Origin: Promethearchaeota archaeon
GTDB lineage: Archaea; Asgardarchaeota; Lokiarchaeia; Sigyniarchaeales; SOKP01
NCBI GenBank assembly: GCA_030606485.1
Contig: JAUWGH010000005.1
Span: 136,129-200,128, forward strand
DNA: 64,000 nt
Direction: 5' to 3'
The notes below the pieces were generated by a model. That model did not search any database, was not told the origin of the DNA, and saw nothing but the letters and a program-made list of their open reading frames with translations. Made by a program: the position numbers and the translations under genes. Below, piece after piece: positions 40,315 to 52,351 of this stretch; positions within the stretch are counted from its first letter, which is position 1; each line of letters begins with the position of its first letter.

Positions 40315-40518
40315 CTAAAGCATTTCAATCGCGATTTTCATATCGTTCTTAGTTATCTTTTTTCGTCCACTATGTTTGCTGATGTCGATAGCGCATGCAG
40401 TTAATGCTTTAGCTCTTTCTTCTAGATAGTCCATTAATCTATCAACTGCATTCCTGCTAACAATTTCTGCGCCAGCTTTTTTCATCAAAGAACGTAGTGG
40501 AGACCAGGCAAATGCCAT
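40315..40518 (-). CDS. Archaeal histone
   Basis: A 67-residue single histone fold: RSLMKKAGAEIVSRNAVDRL for helix 1 and loop, a long middle helix (DRLMDYLEERAKALTACAID) and ISKHSGRKKITKNDMKIAIEM at the end with the conserved R-K-K-I-T loop. There are no tails. It dimerises to wrap DNA. The start ATG is preceded by a strong GGAGGT ribosome site, which indicates high expression. The start MAFAWSPLR is unusual: most archaeal histones open with a short proline-containing helix such as ELPIAPVGR. Confidence 0.9.
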   Translation of the reverse strand: MAFAWSPLRSLMKKAGAEIVSRNAVDRLMDYLEERAKALTACAIDISKHSGRKKITKNDMKIAIEML

Positions 40519-40997
40519 ATCTTATTACCTCCGCTTATAATTTTTGTATTAAGTTTGTTTTTTTTAATCAATTTATGATGAAATTAAATCATCTATAAAA
40601 TATTATTGATTATCTACTATATAAAGATTATGGAAAAAAAGGAGTGTTTATTGGAGAAATTGGTTGAGTAAAATTATACAAATATGATCTATAATTTTTG
40701 TCGGAAATTATTAATATTGGTTCTAGAGTAGATCATGGATTCTGTAAATTATTTGTATCCTAAAATTAAGATTCATTATTTATAACAAGAAAGAGAATTG
40801 GATAGATGATATTTACCGAATATTGGCTCAATAAATTGATTGAATCCGACCTATAAAAATTCTTCAAATTTCATTCTATGATGATTTTTCTAACAATATA
40901 TTGAATTTATTCTTAGTTAATTATTATTTTATTAGCAATACATCCTTATCCAATCAATTTTAACCGATATTATTTTAATTTGAAGTACATTTGTCGG
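40519..40997. other. Long intergenic region upstream of the histone gene
   Basis: 479 bp holding the histone promoter and ribosome site. Only very short frames occur (13-16 codons), none with a good RBS and a protein-like composition. I see no tRNA or stable structured RNA. Confidence 0.3.
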
Positions 40998-49076: not shown

Positions 49077-49251
49077 TTAGAACTTTACTCTTACTATATT
49101 TTTCTTAATTATTTACCATATTCTAAAATGATTTTTGTCGGAAGGGATAATGAAAATCCTTACTTTTTCCCAATTATATGGTATTAGCAAATTTTATATT
49201 TGTATTTGGTTAAATCTAGTTTAAAAAAGAAGAAAAAATTAACACAATAAT

Positions 49252-51381
49252 TTGAATACAAAAGACAGTTCAAGTAATTTAGAAAAGCATTTGCAAATTA
49301 TTGGAAAAAATATAAGATTACGAATTCTCAAGATTTTATATGAAATAAACAGCCCAATTCCATTTATGGCTTTAAAGAGAAGAATTTTAGAAGAAAAAGG
49401 GGATAGCAGTAAAATTTCATATCATTTAAACATTCTAAAAGAAAACAATTTCATATTATCAGGAGACGAAGGTTATTTCTTAACAAAATTGGGTGGGAGA
49501 ATATTGGAGAAATTATTAGACATAGGAGATATAATTAATGAAGAAAAAAGAAATCTTCAAATCCGAACATCAAATTATACTTTTGAACTATTTGATTTAA
49601 AGAAAATCGTCGAATACTTAATTCGAGAATCAGAGATGCCAGAAAAATTAGCAAGGAAAATTGCAAATGAAGTAAAGTTAAAGTTATCTAATTCAAAAGT
49701 AAATTACTTAACTACTCCTCTAATAAGAGAATATTTAAATGGCATTTTAATTGAAAAGGGTTTTGAGGAATATAGACACAAACTTACACGATTAGGCTTA
49801 CCACCTTTCGAGGTAGAATCCTTAATAAGAAGCCAGCAATTTTCTGATCCTAAAGAATTTTTAAAAAAATTGGGTAGTGAAGTATCAGAGCAATATCTAT
49901 TATTAAATTTATTACCACGAGAATTCGCAGATCTCTATCTTTCAGGTCAGATATCGTTATTACATCTAGATTCTTGGGCTTTACGCCCTTTGTCTATTTC
50001 TATTTCTAATTTAGAGAATACAAATAATTTGGATAAAAGTTTTCTAAAAATCGATGAAACTCTTGAAAAAACCCAAATAAAATCTTATTTCTCAAATTTT
50101 ATCTCAATTCTAACTGATATTAAGAAATTTTTTAATGAAGATATTTTGTTAAATAGGTTTAATGAAATATTACTTTCAATACTTTCAAGATTTAATCAAA
50201 AAGATACTAAAGGTTTATTATTATTCCTTTTAGAACATTTCTTTAAATTAAATTTAAATTTAAATTTAGGAAAATCTCAAATCAGTTTAGATTTTTCACA
50301 CGGTTTTTTACGAAAGAGAGAATTTGACCCGAGTCTTATCACAGAATTAGAGATTGATTTGATTGAATCAATAAAAATTGATCCATTTCGAAATTTTGTT
50401 CATTTAAATCCATTGATGTTATATGATTGTAGTGATATTAATTCTCAAAACTTCAAGGAAAGTGTTCTTACTCGATTTTTCGATATAATTGATAAATCAA
50501 ATTTGCTTTTCTATAGAAATCGAGGTTCAAATCCTATAAACAATATATTAACTTCAATAACTCAAGATTTTGATTCTATCCATAATTCATTTAACAAAAT
50601 ATTATTGGATAAAATCTTTATAAATTTACCAAAAATTGCATTAGAATCAAAACAAAATGATCAACACTTTCTAGAATTATTAGATTTAAATATCACAGCG
50701 GTATTTGAAATTTTTAAAATAAAACAAGATTTAATAAAAAAATATTTAAATTCATTTCATCATTGGAAGTCTCTTTCTAGAATTCTCTTTAATAATGAAA
50801 ATTGTATATTACCAGATCATGTTTTTAAAGCAATCAGTTTTTTTGGTTTAAATGAATCTATTCTATATCATTGTAATATCGAGCTAGATCGAATTGACCA
50901 AAGTCAAGAGTTTGCAAAACAAATTTTAACTACAATTAAAAACAGAATAAATGAAATAAATAATGAACAAAATGAATACTTCATTTTCTCCCAGCCTCAT
51001 ATAGGTAATTATCTTATGAATAGATGGAATTTTGAATTTGATAATATTTCTCATAAGTATGATAGTTTCAGTACAGAATTCATACGGTTTGAATCAAAAT
51101 TGAATTTTGAAAAAAAAGTATCATTATTTAAAACATTTCAAAAAATAGTAAATGGGGGCACACTTTTTAACATATTGTTACCTGATTCAAAAAATATAGA
51201 AGATTTCCATGAAAAAGTAAAATATTTAATTACATATGGGATTCATTATTTTTGTTTTTCATCAAAACAATTAAATTATTACAATGAATCTATTGACAGA
51301 AAAGGTATTCTTATAAGACCAGACACTCAATATATAGATTCTGATTTCTTAAATAAAGAAATTGTAAAGAGATATTTATAA
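49252..51381 (+). CDS. wHTH + ATP-cone + class III ribonucleotide reductase-like protein, probably a regulator
   Basis: A 709-residue three-part protein. Residues 1-90 form an ArsR-like winged helix (KNIRLRILKILYEI, SSKISYHLNILKENNFI). Residues 103-190 form an ATP-cone (FELFDLKKIVEYLIRESEMP, TTPLIREYLNGILIEKGFEE), the nucleotide-sensing domain of NrdR and ribonucleotide reductases. Residues 195-700 resemble the body of anaerobic NrdD: LLPREFADLYLSGQISLLHL, KAISFFGLNESILYH, FQKIVNGGTLFNILLPDS. The C-terminal zinc site and glycyl-radical loop of NrdD are missing: the protein stops at RPDTQYIDSDFLNKEIVKRY. So it is probably not a reductase, but an NrdR-like repressor of nucleotide genes. The start is TTG 49252. 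Confidence 0.7.
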   Translation: MNTKDSSSNLEKHLQIIGKNIRLRILKILYEINSPIPFMALKRRILEEKGDSSKISYHLNILKENNFILSGDEGYFLTKLGGRILEKLLDIGDIINEEKRNLQIRTSNYTFELFDLKKIVEYLIRESEMPEKLARKIANEVKLKLSNSKVNYLTTPLIREYLNGILIEKGFEEYRHKLTRLGLPPFEVESLIRSQQFSDPKEFLKKLGSEVSEQYLLLNLLPREFADLYLSGQISLLHLDSWALRPLSISISNLENTNNLDKSFLKIDETLEKTQIKSYFSNFISILTDIKKFFNEDILLNRFNEILLSILSRFNQKDTKGLLLFLLEHFFKLNLNLNLGKSQISLDFSHGFLRKREFDPSLITELEIDLIESIKIDPFRNFVHLNPLMLYDCSDINSQNFKESVLTRFFDIIDKSNLLFYRNRGSNPINNILTSITQDFDSIHNSFNKILLDKIFINLPKIALESKQNDQHFLELLDLNITAVFEIFKIKQDLIKKYLNSFHHWKSLSRILFNNENCILPDHVFKAISFFGLNESILYHCNIELDRIDQSQEFAKQILTTIKNRINEINNEQNEYFIFSQPHIGNYLMNRWNFEFDNISHKYDSFSTEFIRFESKLNFEKKVSLFKTFQKIVNGGTLFNILLPDSKNIEDFHEKVKYLITYGIHYFCFSSKQLNYYNESIDRKGILIRPDTQYIDSDFLNKEIVKRYL

Positions 51382-51418: not shown

Positions 51419-52351
51419 CTATACAAAATTATTTCCTTTTAATACTAATGCAAGCAGTGCCATTCTTAGATAAAGTCCATATTTCATCTGTTTAAAATAA
51501 ATTGCTTTAGGAGATTTGTCAATATCGGGAGATATTTCACCTACTCTTGGTAAAGGATGCATTAGACGAAAATTCTCTTTTGTATTATCTAAATCCTTCT
51601 TAGTTAGAACATATACATCTTTAACTTTTTCATATTCTTCTGGTTCTAAAAAACGTTCTTCTTGAATTCGTGTCATATACAAAATGTCTAATATTGGTAA
51701 CATCTCCTTAAATTTTTCAGTTTCTTTAAATTTCATCTTTTTGTCATATAGCCAGTCAGTAATTCTAAATCGCATTTTCAATGAAGCAGGAGATATTAAA
51801 TATAAATTTATATTATAATTACTAAAAAGATAGGCTAGCGAATGAACTGTCCGGCCATATTTTAAATCACCACAGAGTCCAATATTTAGTCCATCAATGG
51901 TCCCACATTCTTCTTTGATTGTAAATAAATCTAATAACGCCTGTGTAGGGTGTTCTGCGCTTCCTGATCCACCATTAATAATCGGAATTGACGAAAATTT
52001 GGCTGCCATACGTGCTACACCTTCCAAAGGATGACGTATTACAATAATATCTGAATAATTTTCAACTGTCCTAATTGTATCTGCAATAGATTCTCCCTTT
52101 TTAACTGATGAGACATCTCGAGTTTGAAATCCAATAACTTTTCCTCCTAATCTAAGCATTGCAGATTCAAAACTTAATCTTGTTCTGGTTGAAGGTTCAA
52201 AAAATAAAGCAGCCATTATTTTATTATCTAATAATTTAGAATATTTATTATTTACCATCTTTTTACCGATTTCCAGAATAAAATCAATTTCTTCCCTAGT
52301 AAAATCTCTTGCACTTAATATATGCTGGTTTTTAAAATCCCTCATTATCAT
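51419..52351 (-). CDS. pyrB: Aspartate carbamoyltransferase, catalytic chain
   Basis: Second step of pyrimidine synthesis, joining carbamoyl phosphate and aspartate. Carbamoyl-phosphate loop FFEPSTRTRLSFESAMLRLG and the 80s-type loop SSVKKGESIADTIRTVENYS are intact, as are HPTQALLDLFTIKEE and the LMHPLPRVGEIS end. Length 310 is normal. The regulatory chain gene pyrI, usually adjacent in archaea, is not here. It converges with the NrdD-like regulator gene, 38 bp apart. Confidence 0.95.
   Translation of the reverse strand: MIMRDFKNQHILSARDFTREEIDFILEIGKKMVNNKYSKLLDNKIMAALFFEPSTRTRLSFESAMLRLGGKVIGFQTRDVSSVKKGESIADTIRTVENYSDIIVIRHPLEGVARMAAKFSSIPIINGGSGSAEHPTQALLDLFTIKEECGTIDGLNIGLCGDLKYGRTVHSLAYLFSNYNINLYLISPASLKMRFRITDWLYDKKMKFKETEKFKEMLPILDILYMTRIQEERFLEPEEYEKVKDVYVLTKKDLDNTKENFRLMHPLPRVGEISPDIDKSPKAIYFKQMKYGLYLRMALLALVLKGNNFV

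Follow-up and report, generated by a model that had tools for sequence, protein, structure and literature searches.

A probable archaeal regulator of ribonucleotide reductase genes built on a catalytically dead class III reductase

What is the role of a protein that carries a winged helix, an ATP-cone and most of an anaerobic ribonucleotide reductase on a single chain? Such a protein is encoded in the window, that is, the whole stretch of 64,000 nucleotides of a Lokiarchaeia genome analysed here. A sequence-only reading of the locus had described it as an enzyme turned into a transcriptional sensor, possibly regulating ribonucleotide reductase (RNR) genes or nucleotide genes such as the neighbouring pyrB. 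We examined in turn its domains and catalytic residues, its distribution and gene neighbourhoods, and the DNA upstream of the genes that it may control.

Domain architecture and catalytic residues

The open reading frame is uninterrupted, with 0 internal stops, and its TTG start is kept in three congeneric genomes (protein identity of 90-95%). The features of the locus are collected in Table 1. The three segments described by the sequence-only reading were borne out by Pfam, AlphaFold2 and Foldseek, and the Pfam matches to DUF7347, ATP-cone and NRDD all exceeded the gathering cut-offs. Within the body, Pfam significance is limited to residues 456-672 (NRDD, 3.9e-20, matching profile positions 283-507 of 562), residues 195-455 being assigned to NrdD through the family alignment and the fold. 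At the sequence level, the PDB matches of the protein were to T. maritima NrdD (1e-4), and a PDB search with the first 100 residues returned nothing useful.

Table 1. Features of the locus, in positions of the window
Feature	Position	Strand	Basis or remark
Regulator gene (winged-helix / ATP-cone / dead-NrdD protein)	49252..51381	+	709 aa ORF, TTG start
Winged helix-turn-helix, residues 14-86	49291..49509	+	Pfam DUF7347, 3.8e-10
ATP-cone, residues 103-174	49558..49773	+	Pfam ATP-cone, 3.3e-6
Catalytically dead NrdD-like body, residues 195-709	49834..51378	+	Pfam NRDD, alignment, Foldseek
Candidate operator box TTCCGACAAAAAT	49131..49143	-	~110-120 bases before the regulator start codon; conserved in the genus
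Second copy of the box	40695..40706	-	~177 bases upstream of the histone gene below
Small archaeal-histone gene	~40318..40518	-
pyrB, convergent neighbour (context only)	51419..52351	-	OTCace domains in the cluster representative; adjacency conserved

The AlphaFold2 model, built from a family alignment of 66 sequences, had a pLDDT of 81.5 and a pTM of 0.74. Its winged helix comprises a recognition helix (residues ~55-64) and a beta wing (68-77), so that both elements expected of a winged-helix transcription factor are present according to Pfam and AlphaFold2, with a predicted DNA contact; H58, L62, Y75 and G81 are invariant or nearly so throughout the family. In the ATP-cone, residues RTS 105-107, E112, F114 and I119 are conserved. 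The RTS signature, as opposed to the usual KR-G form, makes the ligand uncertain. When the model was compared with the PDB using Foldseek, ranks 1 to 36 were all class III RNRs, some of them bearing an ATP-cone, with a best E-value of 1.1e-17 and a TM-score by target length of up to 0.70, for T4 NrdD. The relationship of the body to NrdD, which had been put forward from the letters alone, was thus recovered by structure. The NCBIfam NrdD equivalog models all scored far below their cut-off (63.7 bits, where 326 are required).

Aligned with the NrdD of its own genome, the body is full-length from about residue 195 and stops before the zinc site and the glycyl loop, in agreement with the missing C-terminus that the earlier reading had claimed. 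The strand Cys and the thiyl Cys-Cys pair, which that reading did not mention, are gone as well. We then took a census of these positions in a joint alignment of 93 family members and 11 true NrdDs of these archaea, using the numbering of the window genome's own NrdD. A cysteine at the strand position (Cys185) and the tyrosine after the glycine (Tyr696) occur in 0 of 93 members and in 11 of 11 true NrdDs. Each cysteine of the thiyl pair (Cys392 and Cys393) is kept in only 2 of the 93 members, and Gly695 in 18, all three being invariant in the 11 true NrdDs. The zinc cysteines are retained in 51 of the 93 and absent from the window protein. The winged helix, the ATP-cone and a TRLG motif are conserved among the same 93 proteins. 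Exchange of either cysteine of the SCCR motif for alanine (C329A or C330A) leaves T. maritima NrdD inactive (PMC4493059). Judged from the aligned residues, catalytic loss is general to the family, and loss of the zinc/glycyl C-terminus is partial, becoming complete in the archaeal family to which the window belongs.

A second, independent dead NrdD was observed in relatives from this archaeal family (L075:1608-3413, L076:3745-5541 and L077:3445-5256). These proteins of ~600 aa are 42-46% identical to true NrdD and have no winged helix; the thiyl Cys-Cys pair and the glycyl/zinc end are missing, and they form in the tree the sister group of Lokiarchaeal NrdD.

Distribution and gene neighbourhoods

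The regulator family is widespread and spans two phyla, the Asgard archaea and the Thermoproteota. Matches were obtained in 88 of the 97 genomes around the window's own (Lokiarchaeota), some of them being the ATP-cones of true RNRs, and a profile search at 1e-20 retrieved 253 of 398 genomes on the Thermoproteota side, a count that includes true NrdDs. Most members are ~640-790 aa long. In an unrooted tree of 53 rows, the family forms one clade apart from NrdD, on a single branch with an SH-aLRT support of 99. The window genome encodes an intact NrdD and a NrdJ besides the regulator, and these three are the only ATP-cone proteins found in it. The zinc ribbon of the bacterial regulator NrdR (Zn_ribbon_NrdR, PF22811) was detected in 0 of 58 relatives, including the window genome, the nine control genomes being positive.

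Gene neighbourhoods were compared at 53 loci. In one Thermoproteota group with genomes of 1.2-1.9 Mb (L132-L143), the gene immediately downstream of the regulator, read from the same strand, encodes in 12 of 12 cases a class I/II RNR (PF02867 plus ATP-cone). In these 12 genomes the regulator is the only NRDD match above the cut-off, with one further weak C-terminal match (7e-4). At three other loci (L116, L128 and L131) it is directly upstream of nrdD, and at another three (L118, L145 and L149) a single small ORF separates the two genes; this ORF is glutaredoxin-like in L118 and belongs to the same cluster in L149. At the Asgard locus L085, the regulator and nrdD are convergent.

A widespread neighbour is pyrB, which is immediately adjacent and convergent to the regulator at 21 of the 53 loci (Loki and Bathyarchaeia-like, the latter within L112-L151). 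Being convergent, the two genes have no promoter region in common, and no copy of the candidate operator described below was found at pyrB. We therefore reject pyrB as a target, against the earlier suggestion; its adjacency is old synteny and not evidence of co-regulation.

A candidate operator at nrdD, nrdJ and the regulator gene

Comparison of upstream regions in the archaeal family of the window brought out an element, NCCGAYAAAAW, common to nrdD, nrdJ and the regulator gene. All 12 genomes compared in this archaeal family have it upstream of nrdD. For nrdJ, it is present upstream in 6 of 6 genomes from other genera, against 0 of 4 in the genus of the window. At the regulator gene, every locus checked in the archaeal family has the box except L056. 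In most of the other genera it overlaps the start-codon region of the regulator. There, the first residue varies between Ser, Ala, Thr and Pro, and the codons read xCC GAC AAA in 26 of 26 in-frame cases; each such combination would be expected at ~1.5% from the genes' own codon usage, a value that yields no joint probability because the genomes are related. Two genomes whose annotated start is further downstream still keep the box, before the start. At this position it is the nucleotides, and not the peptide, that are conserved. Since the position of the box relative to start codons varies, it is compatible with repression as well as with activation.

Over 387 kb of loci from this archaeal family, comprising 304 gene starts, boxes were found only at the regulator gene, nrdD, the AAA/Cdc6 loci and the divergent neighbours of the latter, bearing in mind that the AAA/Cdc6 loci had been chosen because of a box and that some loci are near-identical. 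The box has 19 sites in this set, versus 2 for the reversed pattern. In the more distant genome G062, nrdD and the regulator gene each have a copy; G064 and G068 have none at nrdD or nrdJ, although one is present at their regulator genes. No NCCGAYAAAAW was seen at the Thermoproteota loci, whose operator may instead be another motif, TGATC. Dense TGATC/GATCA repeats occur in the region upstream of the regulator and in the stretch from the regulator to nrdJ (L133-L143); in several Thermoproteota genomes TGATC reaches up to 24 per kb upstream of the regulator, versus ~3 per kb locally.

In the window genome the box is also found upstream of orc1/cdc6, two histone genes (one of them in Table 1), purS and an AAA ATPase (L229, L235, L236, L238 and the window). 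At the orthologues in relatives its occurrence is patchy, with 7 of 28 for orc1/cdc6 and 7 of 30 for the AAA ATPase, so that we do not claim a wider, S-phase-like replication regulon beyond mentioning it as a possibility.

Two side observations were made on these upstream regions. At L280 and L251, which represent two families within the order (G016 and G068), a gene for a small ribbon-helix-helix-like protein is preceded by a box at a distance of 89-99 bases. In addition, genera of the archaeal family other than the window's own have a further conserved element at the regulator gene, approximately ATATCACC..ATATTAT, which precedes a TATA-like stretch.

Proposed function, alternatives and relation to known regulators

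The conserved clade of dead reductases, its adjacency to nrdD and nrdJ, its retention without NrdD, the absence of NrdR and the common box lead us to read the protein as an RNR regulator. That it is an enzyme turned regulator acting on RNR genes is well supported; this part of the sequence-only reading stands on the adjacency, the box and the dead clade, and the proposed action on pyrB is not supported. The domains themselves suggest that the protein binds DNA and senses nucleotides. We thus consider it probable that the gene encodes a nucleotide-sensing, autoregulated archaeal RNR regulator that functionally replaces NrdR, its DNA binding, effector and sign being inferred.

ATP-cones sense ATP/dATP in RNRs and in NrdR (PMC9110341, PMC12176259). 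In the present family, a duplicated class III reductase bears an N-terminal winged helix and has lost its catalytic cysteines family-wide. According to the mechanism that we propose, the winged helix would bind the NCCGAYAAAAW box and the ATP-cone would read dATP against ATP, as it does in RNRs and NrdR. The old reductase fold would provide a dimer and perhaps also sense dNTPs, at what was once the specificity site, and the nucleotide state would switch both the oligomer and DNA binding. By analogy with bacterial NrdR, the RNR genes and the regulator's own gene would most likely be repressed when dNTPs are plentiful.

Other readings of the same protein were weighed. Its missing catalytic C-terminus might denote a decaying nrdD pseudogene, or the protein might still be an active reductase, but neither has any appreciable probability. 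The open frame and the architecture are kept over two phyla, which rules out a one-off pseudogene; the catalytic residues are absent from all members, which points neither to recent decay nor to an active RNR and rules out the latter; and the window genome has an intact NrdD and a NrdJ of its own. With its NrdD fold, its ATP-cone and its place beside nrdD at some loci, the protein could also be an inactive subunit that modulates true NrdD by forming heterodimers with it, in which case the winged helix would make contacts with protein and not with DNA. This is very unlikely: in the 12 genomes where it is retained beside a class I/II RNR gene as the only NRDD match above the cut-off, it is not simply a partner subunit of NrdD, few parts of the family are as well conserved as its winged helix, and a common DNA box suggests transcription.

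The box itself leaves room for two further interpretations. It is known by its association with genes, its binding by the regulator is putative, and Thermoproteota members do not have it; the protein might therefore be no more than a member of the regulon that senses nucleotides for some other purpose, another factor binding the box. We regard this as improbable, given that the protein has a DNA-binding domain of its own and that it adjoins RNR genes also in another phylum, one without the box; the link to RNR is thus independent of it. Conversely, the additional boxes of the window genome and the conserved neighbour pyrB could be taken as signs that the target is a wider DNA-synthesis programme, or pyrimidine genes, and not RNR specifically. 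This is also unlikely, as the boxes at orc1/cdc6 and the AAA ATPase are patchy, unlike those at nrdD and the regulator gene, and pyrB is convergent.

Read as an RNR regulator, the protein can be compared with known systems. Like NrdR, it fuses a DNA-binding domain to an ATP-cone and is tied to the genes of different RNR classes, and its own gene has the box too; autoregulation is frequent in NrdR (PMC9110341). NrdR differs in being a protein of ~150 aa made of a zinc ribbon and an ATP-cone, whereas the present regulator consists of a winged helix and a whole dead reductase, and NCCGAYAAAAW was identified without recourse to NrdR boxes. As for NrdR, the RNR genes (nrdD and nrdJ) have a conserved candidate operator, which the regulator gene shares, although not in every genus. 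The protein would work like NrdR without being a member of that family, having a reductase body and no zinc ribbon. NrdD shares with it the homologous body, the ATP-cone and the fold, and the family clade joins NrdD in the tree; the regulator differs by the added winged helix and by lacking the SCCR-type Cys-Cys, the strand Cys, the RVTGY glycyl loop and, in the window protein, the Zn(Cys)4 site. With the ArsR-like archaeal winged-helix proteins (DUF7347) it has the N-terminal domain in common, to which it adds the ATP-cone and the dead reductase. In BirA, PutA and Gal80, an enzyme or a dead enzyme acts as a regulator. They resemble the present protein in that an enzyme fold senses metabolites for transcription, and differ from it in folds and pathways.

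We class the protein as a probable RNR regulator that has an ATP-cone in a new architecture. Full-text literature searches, whose coverage excluded most subscription papers, returned no such RNR-derived regulator, and the literature searched held no description of how dNTP supply is controlled in archaea without NrdR. The present family offers a candidate regulator in two archaeal phyla, Asgard archaea included, together with a testable operator. More speculatively, and with a low chance of being right in full, archaea would have evolved, independently of NrdR, an RNR regulator in which a whole class III reductase senses dNTPs at both the ATP-cone and the specificity site, and whose box in Lokiarchaeia, reaching origin-recognition, histone and purine genes, would define a simple S-phase-like regulon. 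If the regulator reading is true, an enzyme of DNA-precursor synthesis was co-opted in its entirety to sense its own pathway, and the preserved intermediates, with the zinc site kept and the glycyl loop eroded, make the path from enzyme to regulator readable.
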